Source: an uncultured Roseovarius sp. (GTDB taxonomy: Bacteria; Pseudomonadota; Alphaproteobacteria; Rhodobacterales; Rhodobacteraceae). Taken from it: a stretch of 64,000 nucleotides of DNA. Where the stretch lies: positions 23,219 to 87,218 of the forward strand of contig NZ_CAMYMD010000067.1 in assembly GCF_947259555.1 (NCBI RefSeq), written 5' to 3'. Under the pieces are notes generated by a model. That model was not told where the DNA came from and searched no databases. It worked only from the letters and a program-made list of their open reading frames with translations. Below, one piece after another: positions 4,592 through 59,727 of the stretch. Positions within the stretch are counted from its first letter, which is position 1. Every line of letters starts with the position of its first letter. Both the position numbers and the translations under genes were made by a program.

Positions 4592-4665
4592 CGGACCGAG
4601 GAGGATTCGAACCCCCGACCCCTTGATTCGTAGTCAAGTACTCTATCCAGCTGAGCTATCGGTCC
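4592..4665 (-). tRNA. tRNA-Arg (anticodon ACG)
   Basis: Reverse complement GGACCGATAGCTCAGCTGGATAGAGTACTTGACTACGAATCAAGGGGTCGGGGGTTCGAATCCTCCTCGGTCCG folds as cloverleaf; loop CTACGAA; GGTTCGAATCC T-arm. Confidence 0.95.
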
Positions 4666-11334: not shown

Positions 11335-11439
11335 TGGCCACGGTTTGTTGACCTGTATCAAAGTCGTATCTGCGGATCAGGATTAATCTGCTATTATACT
11401 ATTGTGTACGGTTAATACACGAACCTCCCTGTTGGACTG

Positions 11440-11466
11440 GCCCCGGCTTCGCGCCGGGGCTTTTTT
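11440..11466 (+). terminator. Rho-independent terminator
   Basis: GCCCCGGC-TTCGC-GCCGGGGC then TTTTTT. Confidence 0.85.
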
Positions 11467-44379: not shown

Positions 44380-44925
44380 ATGAGACTATTGCTAACGCTT
44401 ATCTTGAGCAGTTACGCGAGTTTTGCGGCGGCTCAAGATATAGAGGCCTTGGACCAAGACGGTGTCGTTGCCATGATGCGTCATGCGCTGGCGCCGGGTA
44501 CGGGTGACCCGGGCGGGTTTGAATTGAGGGACTGCTCCACGCAGCGCAATCTTGATGCGCGGGGGCGAGCGCAGGCGCGTCGTACCGGCGCGGCACTGCG
44601 TGAAGCCGGGATCGCGTTTGACAAGGTCTGGAGCAGTCGTTGGTGCCGCGCGCGTGATACCGCCGAGTTGATGGAGATGGGTAAGGTGATCGAGCAGCCC
44701 GCGCTCGACTCCTTTTTTGCAGGGCGCGGCGACCGGGAAGACCAGACTGCAGCAACGCTCGATCTCATTCAGGCTTTGCCCGAGCAGACGCGGCTTTTGA
44801 TTGTCACGCATCAGGTCAATATTACAGCCTTGACGGGACGGGGCGTGAGCTCTGGGGAGATCATCATAACGCGCAGGGGATCTGACGTGCTCGATGTGAT
44901 CGGTCGTCATCTGATTGCCCCGTAG
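44380..44925 (+). CDS. Histidine phosphatase family exported protein
   Basis: Signal peptide; VVAMMRHALAPG, VWSSRWCRARDTAELM, TRLLIVTHQVNI. Confidence 0.88.
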   Translation: MRLLLTLILSSYASFAAAQDIEALDQDGVVAMMRHALAPGTGDPGGFELRDCSTQRNLDARGRAQARRTGAALREAGIAFDKVWSSRWCRARDTAELMEMGKVIEQPALDSFFAGRGDREDQTAATLDLIQALPEQTRLLIVTHQVNITALTGRGVSSGEIIITRRGSDVLDVIGRHLIAP

Positions 44926-44934
44926 ACGTGCGGC

Positions 44935-45345
44935 TCAGCGCAGTCTCGGCACACCGTCGGCATGTGTGCTGCGATCGACGACGCCCGCGCGCAAGCTGCG
45001 GCCGATCCGATGTGCCAGCGCCGACCACGCGGCGGCCTGCTCGGGGCGCAGCTCTCGCGCGACTACGGCGTCAAAGAGCGCCAGCCAAGTCGAGAACATC
45101 CCCGGCTGAACGTTGCGGGCCTTCACATGGGCCGCCATCGGACTCCCGTCATAAACCCGCTCGTGCAGGATCGAATTGGCCCAGAAATCGGCGACCTTGG
45201 CCTCATGCGCGGGCCAGTCCTCGACATGCACGGCAAAGACCGGGCCCAAGCCGGGATGGTTGCGCACGGCCTCGTAGAACGTGGCAACGACCCGCTCTAT
45301 CTCGGGTCGGGTGATGTCGAAGCGTGGGGGCAGGGTGATGCTCAT
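44935..45345 (-). CDS. Group III truncated hemoglobin
   Basis: VATFYEAVRNHPGLGPVFAVHVEDWPAHEAKVADFWANSIL. Confidence 0.88.
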   Translation of the reverse strand: MSITLPPRFDITRPEIERVVATFYEAVRNHPGLGPVFAVHVEDWPAHEAKVADFWANSILHERVYDGSPMAAHVKARNVQPGMFSTWLALFDAVVARELRPEQAAAWSALAHRIGRSLRAGVVDRSTHADGVPRLR

Positions 45346-45462
45346 GGTCTTTATGTGGCGCGGGACGCGGGCCGAGGCAATCCCCTCTTGTGGCTGGGTG
45401 GGGCCGAAATCTTGAAAAGATTTCGGAGCGCTTTCTTTTCAAGAAAGCGGGCGCGCGCCCTC

Positions 45463-45491
45463 TGGACGCCTGCCGGGTCCGCGCCTATAAG
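45463..45491 (+). promoter_or_regulatory. Candidate sigma70 promoter of the ileS leader transcript
   Basis: TGGACG - 17 bp - TATAAG; predicted start falls at or near the ATG at 45499. Confidence 0.55.
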
Positions 45492-45498
45492 GCGAAGC

Positions 45499-45549
45499 AT
45501 GATGAGACGCATAGCGATCATTATTCGAATTACATGCCCGGCGCTCTGA
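45499..45549 (+). CDS. Ile-rich leader peptide upstream of ileS (MMRRIAIIIRITCPAL)
   Basis: ATG ATG AGA CGC ATA GCG ATC ATT ATT CGA ATT ACA TGC CCG GCG CTC TGA; 5 Ile codons of 16; hairpin overlaps its stop. Confidence 0.65.
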   Translation: MMRRIAIIIRITCPAL

Positions 45550-45567
45550 CCCCCTCGAGCCGCCGGG
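45537..45567 (+). promoter_or_regulatory. Candidate attenuator hairpin in ileS leader
   Basis: CCCGGCGCTC / GAGCCGCCGGG (one bulge) with loop spanning the leader stop codon. Confidence 0.55.
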
Positions 45568-45642
45568 ATCACAGGCGTTTGAGCCATCGCGCCGCCCCAG
45601 ACCCCCTGATTTCCAACACTCCAGTGACAAAGGACGTCACCC

Positions 45643-48612
45643 ATGTGTTCTGACATGCCCGACTACAAAGACACCCTGAACCTGCCCAAGACCGAGTTTC
45701 CGATGCGCGCGGGCCTGCCCAAGCGCGAGCCGGAATGGCTCGCCCGTTGGGAAGAAATCGGGATCTATGACCGGCTGCGCGAGCGGGCTGCCCTCGCCCG
45801 GACGGGCGAAAATCAGGAAAGCCGCGCGCCGTTTACCCTGCATGACGGCCCTCCTTATGCCAACGGGCACCTGCATATCGGCCACGCGCTGAATAAAATC
45901 CTCAAGGACATGGTGGTGCGCTCGCAGCAGATGATGGGCCGCGACGCGCGTTATATCCCCGGCTGGGATTGCCACGGGTTGCCCATCGAATGGAAGATCG
46001 AAGAGCAGTACCGCGCCAAGGGCATGGACAAGGACAAGGTCGATACCGTCGATTTCCGTCAGGAATGCCGCAAGTTCGCCGAAGGCTGGATCGACGTGCA
46101 GCGCGACGAGTTCAAGCGCCTTGGGATCACCGGCGCATGGGACAAGCCGTATCTGACGATGGATTTCCGCGCCGAGCGGATCATCGCGGAGGAGTTTCAG
46201 AAATTTCTGATGTCGGGGGTGCTCTATCAGGGCTCCAAGCCGGTGATGTGGTCGCCCATAGAGAAGACCGCGCTCGCCGAGGCGGAGGTGGAGTATCACG
46301 ACAAGGAAAGCTTTACGGTTTGGGTGAAGTTCGAGGTGGTCGGCGGACCGCTGGTGGATATCAAACCGGGTGCAGCACCAAATTCTGAGTTCGACGACAC
46401 GTCTGTCGTGATCTGGACCACCACGCCGTGGACGATCCCGTCGAACAAGGCGGTCGTTTACGGCGAGGGTATCGCCTATGGCCTCTACGAAGTCACCGAC
46501 GCGCCTAAGGAATGCTGGGCCAAAGTGGGAGAAAAATTCATCCTCGCCGACAAGCTTGCTGGTGATGTGATGACGCGCGCGCGGCTGGAGGAGGGGATGT
46601 ACACCCGCCTGCGCGACGTGACCGCCGATGAGTTGGCGGGCCTGTCGCTGCAACACCCGCTGGCCAATGCCGAAGGCAGCAAAGGCGAATGGGACGACCT
46701 GCGCGATTTCCGCGCCGCCGATTTCGTCACCGACGAGGAGGGCACTGGCTTTGTCCATTGCGCGCCGAGCCACGGGATGGAGGAATACGAGCTTTATCGC
46801 GGTCTCGGGATGCTGGAAAAGGTCATCACCTACAACGTGCTCGACGATGGCTCCTTCCGCCCCGATCTGCCGTTCTTTGGCGGCACGTTCATCCTTGACC
46901 GCAAGGGCAAGGAGGGCAATGCCAACAAATCCGTCATCGACAAGCTGGTGGAGGTCGGCGGGCTGCTGGCGCGCGGCAAGATCAAGCATTCTTACCCGCA
47001 TAGCTGGCGCTCCAAGGCGCCGGTGATCTATCGCAACACCCCGCAATGGTTCGCCGCCATTGACCGCGCGGTGGGCGACGGGCAGGATGCTTATGGTACC
47101 ACCATCCGCGAGCGCGCGCTGCGCTCAATTGATGAGCTGGTGACATGGACGCCCAAGACCGGGCGGAACCGGCTCTATTCGATGATTGAGGCGCGGCCGG
47201 ATTGGGTGCTGAGCCGTCAGCGTGCCTGGGGCGTGCCGCTCACGTGCTTTGTGAAGAGAGGCGCGCAACCTACTGATGCGGAATATCTTTTGCGCAATGA
47301 AGACGTGAATGCCCGCATCCTTGAGGCGTTCGAGGCCGAGGGCGCGGATGCCTGGTATAAAGAGGGTGCCAAGGAGCGGTTCCTCGACGGAATCGTCGAT
47401 CCGGCGGCCTGGGAACAGGTCGATGACATCCTCGACGTCTGGTTCGACAGCGGCTCAACCCACGCCTTCGTGCTGCGCGACCGCGAGGATGGGTCAGACG
47501 ACGGCATGGCCGATCTTTATCTCGAAGGCACCGATCAGCATCGCGGCTGGTTCCATTCCTCGATGCTGCAGGCCTGCGGCACCATCGGGCACGCGCCCTA
47601 TCGCGGCGTGCTGACCCATGGCTTCACACTGGACGAGAAGGGCAACAAGATGTCCAAATCGCTCGGCAATACCGTGGCCCCCGAGGATGTGACCAAGCAA
47701 TATGGGGCCGATATCCTGCGGCTGTGGGTGGCGCAGGCGGATTATACCGCCGACCTGCGGATCGGGCCGGAGATCCTCAAGGGGGTGGCGGATGGCTATC
47801 GTCGCTTGCGCAACACGATGCGATTCATGCTGGGGGGATTGAGCCATTTCAGCGAGGCGGATCGGGTCGCTCCTGACGAGATGCCGGAGCTGGAGCAATG
47901 GGTGCTGCACCGGCTGGCAGAGCTCGATCACAAGGTGAAGAAAGGCTATGAAGCCTATGATTTTCAAGGGGTATTTCAGCAGATTTTCAACTTCGCTACG
48001 ATCGATCTGTCGGCCTTCTACTTCGATATCCGCAAGGATGCGCTCTATTGCGACGGCGACACGGCGCGGCGTCGAGCAGCGCGCACGGTGCTCGATCTTC
48101 TGTTCCACCGGCTGACCACGTGGCTCGCGCCGGTGCTGGTCTTTACCATGGAAGAGGTCTGGCTGGAGCGCTTCCCCGGCACGCAAAGTTCGGTGCATCT
48201 GACCGATATCCCCGCCACGCCCGCTGACTGGTTGAACGAGCCGCTGGCGGCGAAGTGGGCGCAGGTGCGTCAGGCGCGTCGCGTGGTCACGGCAGCGCTG
48301 GAGGTGCAGCGTACCGACAAGGTGATCGGGGCCTCGCTGGAAGCAGCGCCAATCGTGCATGTGCGGGATCCGGATATGCTCGCGGCGCTCAAGTCGGTCA
48401 ATTTCGAGGATATCTGCATCACATCCGATATCACGCTCACCGACGTACCGCGCCCCGATGAGGCGTTTCGCCTGCCCGAGGTCGAGACGGTCGGTGTGGT
48501 CTTTGCCAAGGCGGATGGCGAGAAATGTCAGCGCTGCTGGAAGATCTTGCCGGATGTGGGCAACCATGCCCATGCAGGCACGTGCAAACGCTGTGATGTC
48601 GCGCTTGGCTGA
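45643..48612 (+). CDS. ileS: Isoleucyl-tRNA synthetase
   Basis: [39 protein letters not shown] at 45629. Confidence 0.99.
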   Translation: MCSDMPDYKDTLNLPKTEFPMRAGLPKREPEWLARWEEIGIYDRLRERAALARTGENQESRAPFTLHDGPPYANGHLHIGHALNKILKDMVVRSQQMMGRDARYIPGWDCHGLPIEWKIEEQYRAKGMDKDKVDTVDFRQECRKFAEGWIDVQRDEFKRLGITGAWDKPYLTMDFRAERIIAEEFQKFLMSGVLYQGSKPVMWSPIEKTALAEAEVEYHDKESFTVWVKFEVVGGPLVDIKPGAAPNSEFDDTSVVIWTTTPWTIPSNKAVVYGEGIAYGLYEVTDAPKECWAKVGEKFILADKLAGDVMTRARLEEGMYTRLRDVTADELAGLSLQHPLANAEGSKGEWDDLRDFRAADFVTDEEGTGFVHCAPSHGMEEYELYRGLGMLEKVITYNVLDDGSFRPDLPFFGGTFILDRKGKEGNANKSVIDKLVEVGGLLARGKIKHSYPHSWRSKAPVIYRNTPQWFAAIDRAVGDGQDAYGTTIRERALRSIDELVTWTPKTGRNRLYSMIEARPDWVLSRQRAWGVPLTCFVKRGAQPTDAEYLLRNEDVNARILEAFEAEGADAWYKEGAKERFLDGIVDPAAWEQVDDILDVWFDSGSTHAFVLRDREDGSDDGMADLYLEGTDQHRGWFHSSMLQACGTIGHAPYRGVLTHGFTLDEKGNKMSKSLGNTVAPEDVTKQYGADILRLWVAQADYTADLRIGPEILKGVADGYRRLRNTMRFMLGGLSHFSEADRVAPDEMPELEQWVLHRLAELDHKVKKGYEAYDFQGVFQQIFNFATIDLSAFYFDIRKDALYCDGDTARRRAARTVLDLLFHRLTTWLAPVLVFTMEEVWLERFPGTQSSVHLTDIPATPADWLNEPLAAKWAQVRQARRVVTAALEVQRTDKVIGASLEAAPIVHVRDPDMLAALKSVNFEDICITSDITLTDVPRPDEAFRLPEVETVGVVFAKADGEKCQRCWKILPDVGNHAHAGTCKRCDVALG

Positions 48613-58188: not shown

Positions 58189-59727
58189 TCACGCCGGAAG
58201 ATGGATCCGAAACCGCTCGCGAATGGCACGGTCGGTGACCGGGTCGAACCGCGCCGCCGAGCGTTCCGAGAGAATCTTCATCTTCTTCTCGGTGGCCTTC
58301 TCGATCAGGTCGGGCTTGCCCAACTCGTCCCATTCCTTGGGCGAGACGCGGTTGGCGAGGCTGGGATAGACATAATCGGTCTGCATCCGACCGAGGGTTT
58401 GCGCCGCCCCCAGATAATGCCCGGGCCCACCGATGCAGGTGGACCGGATCACATCAAGGCTGAGCGTGTCCTCGTCTACCTCGATGCCGCGCGTGCAACG
58501 CAGGGCCTGACCGATCAGGTCATCGCCGAGGATGAGCGATTCGAGGCAGAAGCCCAGAAGCGAGGCATGCATGCCCGCCGCCTCGTAGACCATGTTGAGG
58601 CCCGAGAGCCCGGCCATGACATTCGACATCGCCTGTTCCCACCCGGCCTGCATATCGGGCAGCTTGGCATCGGCGATGCCTGCCGCAGCACCGCCGGGCA
58701 GGCCGTAGAATTTGTGCATCTGCGCGCAGCCTGCCGACAGCAGCGCCTGTTCGCCCGATCCGCCCGACATCGCGCCGGTGCGCAGATCGCTGACGAAGGG
58801 CCATGTGCCGAAGATCGCCGGATGCCCCGGTTTGACCGCGTTGACATAGACGAGACCGGCGAGGCATTCGGCCATGGCCTGAACGATGGCCCCGGCGATG
58901 GGGGCAGGGGCGGTGGCCCCGGCTTGCCCTGCCGAGAGCAGCAGGACGGGTATGCCGCCGTGAATGCACTCCTCCATCACGAGGCAGGATTCGGTGGCGA
59001 ATTTCATCGGCGGGACGACGAAGCAGTTGGAGTTGCTGATGAACGGGCGCGCGCGCCATTTTTCCTCGCCACCTGCGATCAGATGCAACATCTCGAGCGC
59101 ATCACGCACAAAGGCTGGCTCTGTGAAAGACACGCCGACATGCTTGGTGGTCCCGGCACAGCAGGCATAGAGGGTGTTGAGGTCCATCTCGCGGTTATCG
59201 GGGATGTCACGGCAGACCATCGGGCGCTGGACGAAGTGGATATTGTCCAGCTGATCGGCGATGCGGGCGGCGTCATGCAGATCCTGTACCGTGCTCTCTC
59301 GGTAGGTGCGGGCATGCGGCTCGACCAGATGCACCGCCGCGCCGGCTGTGCCATAATGTACGCGGGTGCCTTGCAACAGCATATCGTGCTGCGGGTCGCG
59401 ACCGCAGAGCGTGAGCGCGCGATTGGCCGAGGCGATGGTGTATTCGATCAGGGCGCGGGGAAAGCGGAGGCGCCCGTCTTCGCCCTGCACGGCCCCGGCG
59501 CCGGTCAGGTAGGCCACGCCCGAGGGCGGCGCATCGGCCAGCCCGATCTGTTCCAGCGCGTCGAGCACGGCTGCGTGAATGCGGTCCATCTGCAAAGTGG
59601 TGAGCGGGCGGTAGGTGCCGCCCTCAAGCCCGGGGCGGATCGGGCGCATGTTCGCGGCAAGCGGGTTGGAGCGGGCTTCGCGGCGGGCGGCGCGGCCACC
59701 GGCGCGGCGCGTTTTGGTCTCTGTCAT
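58189..59727 (-). CDS. Trimethylamine methyltransferase (MttB) superfamily, apparently non-pyrrolysine
   Basis: GGTYRPLTTLQMDRIH..., uninterrupted ORF; start trimmed to MTETK. Confidence 0.9.
   Translation of the reverse strand: MTETKTRRAGGRAARREARSNPLAANMRPIRPGLEGGTYRPLTTLQMDRIHAAVLDALEQIGLADAPPSGVAYLTGAGAVQGEDGRLRFPRALIEYTIASANRALTLCGRDPQHDMLLQGTRVHYGTAGAAVHLVEPHARTYRESTVQDLHDAARIADQLDNIHFVQRPMVCRDIPDNREMDLNTLYACCAGTTKHVGVSFTEPAFVRDALEMLHLIAGGEEKWRARPFISNSNCFVVPPMKFATESCLVMEECIHGGIPVLLLSAGQAGATAPAPIAGAIVQAMAECLAGLVYVNAVKPGHPAIFGTWPFVSDLRTGAMSGGSGEQALLSAGCAQMHKFYGLPGGAAAGIADAKLPDMQAGWEQAMSNVMAGLSGLNMVYEAAGMHASLLGFCLESLILGDDLIGQALRCTRGIEVDEDTLSLDVIRSTCIGGPGHYLGAAQTLGRMQTDYVYPSLANRVSPKEWDELGKPDLIEKATEKKMKILSERSAARFDPVTDRAIRERFRIHLPA

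Follow-up and report, generated by a model that had tools for sequence, protein, structure and literature searches.

Leader peptides of the trpL, hisL and ilvL type are encoded by a short ORF that contains codons for the cognate amino acid, overlaps the 5' arm of a hairpin, and precedes a gene for that amino acid. The leader of ileS described here shares these characteristics. It differs in that it has neither a U-tract terminator nor a supported antiterminator, carries CGA-AUU as an unvarying codon pair whose distance from the hairpin is fixed, would control a tRNA synthetase gene, and is found class-wide in the Alphaproteobacteria. In the Firmicutes and Actinobacteria, Ile-tRNA is sensed upstream of ileS by the T-box riboswitch, which shares with the proposed element both its signal and its position, but which binds the tRNA directly and contains no ORF. 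Rho-dependent control of the tnaC type also involves a leader ORF, after which comes RNA that is rich in C, poor in G and devoid of an intrinsic terminator. Compared with that system, the ileS leader lacks an arrest peptide for a Trp-type ligand, and a role for Rho is putative.

The Sinorhizobium meliloti trpL (rnTrpL) mRNA starts at the leader AUG and is thus leaderless (PMC10117765). It resembles the ileS leader, which is probably leaderless too, in being an alphaproteobacterial leader peptide, and differs in its amino acid (Trp), its target (trpE) and its peptide. In Caulobacter, ribosome profiling identified a leader CDS of ileS, CCNA_03934, which served only as the negative control of a plate assay (PMC4117421); no sequence analysis or regulatory test of CCNA_03934 was found in the text of that paper. 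CCNA_03934, a small CDS upstream of ileS, may be the same element. No description of a CGA-AUU leader element was found in the open literature searched, and the leader with its hairpin looks like an undescribed isoleucine-supply switch.

Organization of the ileS leader region

The window analyzed is a 64,000-nucleotide stretch from an uncultured Roseovarius sp. The ileS gene (45643..48612, + strand, with its ATG at 45643) encodes isoleucyl-tRNA synthetase, and its product scores 772 bits against NCBIfam TIGR00392 (cut-off 621). It would be the regulated gene, and its Shine-Dalgarno sequence AAGGA (45630..45634, +) is kept in the genus. The promoter (45463..45491, +) consists of a -35 element TGGACG (45463-45468) and, 17 nt further on, a -10 element TATAAG (45486-45491). 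The latter is kept throughout the genus, while the former is replaced by CTTGnnn in four relatives. Downstream lies a leader ORF of 16 codons, MMRRIAIIIRITCPAL (45499..45549, +), recognized from its sequence and conservation, with an ATG at 45499, a second ATG at 45502 and a TGA at 45547-45549. Promoter, leader ORF, hairpin and ileS start all lie where the sequence-only reading had placed them, except that the gap between the -10 element and the leader ATG is 7 nt rather than 8.

The leader ATG has no Shine-Dalgarno sequence. Among 150 named or genus loci, a -10-like box ends 5–10 nt before the leader ATG in 146 (mode 6–7), the distance being 6–7 nt in 125 of these 146, and a Shine-Dalgarno-like sequence precedes the ATG in a single locus. 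This combination of spacing and missing ribosome-binding sites makes it likely that the leader is translated from a leaderless mRNA, and the leaders of the Rhodobacteraceae are probably of this kind.

Immediately 5' of the ileS promoter, the window holds a dispersed repeat (45404-45456) composed of two adjacent hairpins, CCGAAATCTTGAAAAGATTTCGG and CGCTTTCTTTTCAAGAAAGCG. Several more copies of it are present in this genome, and other members of the genus have many. Elsewhere in the window, Rfam matches were obtained for PYLIS_3, the mttB pyrrolysine element (45.8 bits; 58578-58676, -), and for the sRNA SorX (67.1 bits; 11395-11466, +).

The CGA-AUU-A core and its conservation in the Rhodobacteraceae

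The core of the element is the unit CGA-AUU-A (45526..45532, +), an Arg-Ile codon pair with the next base, followed by four free bases and a CCCG...CGGG hairpin at fixed spacing. It is a candidate stall site. All 22 homologues from the genus keep the reading frame, the -10 element and the CGA-ATT core, each has one or more Ile codons besides that of the core, and BLAST matches were obtained in 184 of the 298 genomes of the family, nearly all from different genera. The earlier proposal of a translated Ile-codon leader ahead of ileS is supported, and the comparison of ileS upstream regions across the Rhodobacteraceae that it called for shows the leader and its hairpin to be strongly conserved. 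In an alignment of 45 sequences, CGAATTA and CCCGGC are invariant, while the nearby Ile codons vary freely between ATC and ATT. Several leaders in the family hold one Ile only. The leader peptides conserve R-I-x-x-P, in which the P is forced by the CCCG stem, and at the nucleotide level CGA-AUU-A is conserved beyond what the encoded amino acids would demand.

A pattern scan of named genomes gave more than 100 loci, nearly all in the Rhodobacteraceae and nearly all ahead of ileS. A looser pattern matched 278 of the 298 family genomes, a figure which is an upper bound only, with some matches in the control and some in coding sequence. As the motif-based surveys preset CGAATT, we argue for invariance only from the sets derived by BLAST and k-mer counting. 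No second copy of the exact motif was found in this genome. Judged by these comparisons, the conservation of the Ile-rich leader and its hairpin is not a matter of chance.

Distribution of the element and the genes it precedes

The sequence-only reading overlooked the invariant unit of CGA-AUU-A with its fixed-spacing hairpin, which occurs class-wide and before other genes. The core is present in dozens of alphaproteobacterial families besides the Rhodobacteraceae. An unbiased k-mer count over 130 ileS upstream regions, in which each alphaproteobacterial family is represented by about one sequence, found CGAATTA in 27 against an expected 3.4; CCCG follows at the same spacing in 25 of the 27, with a clear hairpin in most, and the sequences with the core include an AT-rich genome whose leader reads MKFNKQIIIRIINPTSL. 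When all CGN-ATH-N5-CCCG combinations were counted, CGA-ATT occurred 28 times and each other combination at most once. The hairpin pattern was found in 80 of 385 alphaproteobacterial genomes and its reversed control in 1; among roughly 180 genomes of other Pseudomonadota, about 1 had the pattern. Outside the Rhodobacteraceae, all 95 distinct leaders have an upstream ATG in frame with the core, compared with 16 and 9 in the other two frames.

The genes following 96 elements are ileS (42), a family of ACT-like proteins (41), NTF2-like genes (4) and threonine ammonia-lyase (1, plus Azospirillum). Inspection of the remaining eight identified six AAA_33 genes, one FAD-synthetase-like gene (ribF), which lies just upstream of ileS on the same contig, and one probable chance match. 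NTF2-like or AAA_33 genes, for which there is no obvious isoleucine link, thus follow 10 of the 96 elements; these loci (L345-L348; L364, L377, L395, L408, L410, L411) likewise carry an R-I-x-x-P-A leader with a hairpin. The ACT-like proteins are about 90–110 aa long and have weak similarity to the small subunit of acetolactate synthase, below the curated Pfam and NCBIfam thresholds, and a designation as IlvH-like accordingly rests on weak matches. The ACT-like family is found downstream of the leader at L332, L338, L341, L342, L349, L361, L190 and L191, and in some loci another conserved ORF follows. Two leader-hairpin units in tandem, about 180–200 nt apart, precede one gene at L407, L409 and L412 and at the Azospirillum loci L071 and L084.

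Half of the ACT-type leaders have an ORF that continues beyond the hairpin, and in several of those read in detail it extends past the downstream start codon. A conserved (A/T)TTCG-like motif is located 10–13 nt after the ACT-type hairpin, with U at +11 in 72%. This motif resembles a hairpin-stabilised polymerase pause or a pairing partner for CGAAU. In ileS leaders, both base pairing between CGAAU and an (A/G)UUCG further downstream and a U/C-G pause 12–13 nt after the hairpin are weak. Sequence comparison shows the ORF, its frame, the codon invariance and the gene associations, along with the two hairpins described below.

Hairpins and RNA folding

The first hairpin, P1 (45537..45567, +), is formed by pairing of CCCGGCGCTC (45537-45546) with GAGCCGCCGGG (45557-45567), with one bulged base. 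It overlaps the last leader codons, and the UGA stop follows directly after its 5' arm. The predicted fold has -17.7 kcal/mol (z -3.1), the pairing holds in 99.8% of cells, and class-wide the upper-stem pairs 7–10 covary far above shuffles, while the loop sequence varies among leaders. The placement of the 5' arm over the last leader codons, as first read from the single sequence, is supported and strongly conserved. A second hairpin, P2 (45574..45593, +; 45574-45578 and 45581-45582 pairing with 45587-45593), is part of the minimum-free-energy structure at this locus. It is restricted to leaders of the Rhodobacteraceae type, where, among 45 sequences, 6 have a compensatory change from C-G to U-A and 13 have one from A-U to G-C, a result confirmed in a larger set; none of the other families looked at showed a P2.

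Ribosome-masked folding of 120 relatives indicated that P1 is present only without the ribosome and that P2 is affected little or not at all. The sequence-only reading had suggested that stalling at Ile codons switches the hairpins, yet pairing of the antiterminator type (2:3) had a probability of 0.00–0.04 in every ribosome state. It had further placed the ileS Shine-Dalgarno sequence in the loop of a GTGAC/GTCAC hairpin. This hairpin does exist here; it is found in only 5 of the 22 genus sequences, and masking of the Shine-Dalgarno sequence is not supported, its exposure being 0.40–0.42 regardless of ribosome state in the same folding. The second GAGCC segment, proposed to compete for the 5' arm, is a loop segment of a different hairpin and is unconserved. 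The remark that no U-tract is present stood: the search for intrinsic terminators found 0, and none follows P1 in the class-wide sequences read.

Three further candidates were tried and rejected: a pairing of AGGCGUUU with the ileS Shine-Dalgarno sequence, because it is unconserved in the Shine-Dalgarno region of other genera; a pairing between the 5' arm of P1 and the P2 segment GCGCCG, because it is broken in GGUG/CACC variants that retain P2; and T-loop or anticodon mimicry, because the P1 loops are unconserved and CGAAUUA has no flanking stem. No Rfam family covers the leader at the gathering score, and the T-box had no match in the window or in 20 related loci at the gathering score, or at 44900-46100 up to an E value of 5.

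Isoleucine codons, CGA and tRNA supply

In the ileS and ACT-type leaders from outside the Rhodobacteraceae, Ile accounts for 9.6–10.3% of the codons before CGA, compared with 4.6% in this genome, for which codon usage was counted from the 34 ORFs of the window. The share rises to 42% in 8 leaders of the Rhodobacteraceae type. Outside the Rhodobacteraceae, many leaders hold few Ile codons besides the AUU itself, and the leaders of NTF2-like and AAA_33 genes have no Ile enrichment. AUA makes up 26 of the 52 Ile codons in ileS leaders (those outside the Rhodobacteraceae), 3 of 45 in ACT-type leaders, and 8% in this genome. IleRS charges both Ile isoacceptors, and heavy use of AUA therefore fits control of ileS.

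CGA represents 6.4% of the Arg codons in the 34 ORFs of the window. The Arg tRNAs typed have the anticodons ACG, CCG and TCT; as none has TCG, CGA is presumably decoded through inosine wobble by tRNA-Arg(ACG), whose gene is at 4592..4665 (-). An in vivo assay with the his leader found decoding of CGA to be slow (PMC4046918), and the codon pairs that are inhibitory in yeast include CGA-AUA (PMC6379720).

Proposed mechanism

We consider it probable that the element is a cis-acting sensor of charged tRNA-Ile, in which stalling of the leader ribosome alters the fate of the nascent transcript and IleRS rises. What we infer from the comparative results is that the ribosome stalls, which way the response goes and how the output is produced; most confidence attaches to the sensing of Ile-tRNA by stalling, and less to any particular output. 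Transcription would begin at or beside the leader AUG, and the 16-codon leader would be translated without a Shine-Dalgarno sequence. When Ile-tRNA is scarce, the ribosome would stall with the slow CGA in the P site and AUU in the A site, right behind P1. Five bases lie between the A-site AUU and P1, so that, from known footprint sizes, a stalled ribosome would abut or open the base of the stem. The Ile run that precedes the pair in the Rhodobacteraceae would give more stall points. With ample Ile-tRNA, the ribosome would continue, melt P1 and stop at the UGA. These two positions of the ribosome would decide the fate of the nascent transcript, such that IleRS goes up as Ile-tRNA drops.

The output in the Rhodobacteraceae would involve neither an intrinsic terminator nor masking of the Shine-Dalgarno sequence. 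It would most likely be a change in RNA polymerase pausing at P1 together with Rho-dependent termination in the spacer (45594..45629, +), which by base composition is C-rich, G-poor and rut-like and is a candidate Rho loading region. The C/G ratio of the spacer is 2.26 in 127 relatives, compared with 1.01 in 220 control upstream regions (P about 1e-35), and about 60% of it is unpaired by folding. Such a C-rich, G-poor composition suits Rho and suggests that Rho takes part in the output. Because half of the ACT-type ORFs run past the hairpin, different genes may have different output steps.

Ile sensing alone would not require CGA to be invariant, AUU to be kept in preference to AUC, or the next base always to be A. 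We tentatively propose, as a possibility that falls short of being probable, a regulatory class in which one hypersensitive pair, CGA (inosine wobble, P site) and AUU (A site), stands a constant distance ahead of an entry-channel hairpin, a single hungry codon senses the charging of tRNA-Ile, and ileS, threonine ammonia-lyase and the ACT-like family form one Ile-tRNA regulon.

Alternative explanations

The nucleotide-level invariance of CGA-AUU-A and its fixed 4-nt spacing would also accord with a nascent-peptide or codon-pair arrest, in which CGA-AUU and the entry-channel hairpin pause ribosomes for a reason other than Ile, such as general translation stress or some other ligand, the Ile codons being of secondary importance. 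The element also precedes NTF2-like and AAA_33 genes, whose leaders show no Ile enrichment, and this points in the same direction, as does the single Ile of several Rhodobacteraceae leaders. We nevertheless think such an arrest unlikely, since ileS, the ACT-like family or threonine ammonia-lyase follows nearly 90% of the elements that were classified (the ACT-like link to Ile being one of weak similarity), and since the Ile enrichment, the frequent AUA of ileS leaders and the Ile run of the Rhodobacteraceae speak against it. The classical transcription attenuator of the sequence-only reading, where stalling switches mutually exclusive hairpins or Shine-Dalgarno pairing, has in its favor an Ile-codon leader overlapping a stable hairpin, a second, covarying hairpin downstream, and four bases of the P1 3' arm that could in principle pair with the P2 5' arm. 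It is rendered improbable by the missing U-tract, the negligible 2:3 pairing and the constant exposure of the Shine-Dalgarno sequence, and by the lack of conservation of the Shine-Dalgarno hairpin and the second GAGCC, along with a P2 unseen in the other families looked at.

Strong conservation of the primary sequence of CGAAUUA and CCCG/CGGG might instead mark a binding site for a protein or RNA, for instance through autoregulation of IleRS by a tRNA-like structure or as an sRNA released from the leader, with the ORF incidental. The ATG found in frame in 95 of 95 leaders, the Ile and AUA enrichment and the leaderless promoter spacing all argue for a translated ORF, while the unconserved P1 loop, the several gene families carrying the element and the absence of an Rfam match argue against a binding site, which we regard as very improbable. 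Conservation as a promoter and 5' UTR only, with no regulatory function, would explain why the conserved block includes the -10 box and the ATG; set against the compensatory changes in both hairpins, the conserved frame and codons, and the recurrence of the element before unrelated genes, it is hardly credible.

Implications

If the proposed sensing of charged tRNA-Ile is true, the Alphaproteobacteria would gain an apparent counterpart of the T-box that tunes isoleucyl-tRNA synthetase to tRNA charging, and other isoleucine-related genes would apparently be tuned in the same manner. An effect of codon-pair decoding speed is known mainly from the inhibitory codon pairs of yeast. The invariant CGA-AUU at a fixed distance from the hairpin leads to the testable claim that the speed at which a codon pair is decoded may also be a regulatory signal in bacteria.
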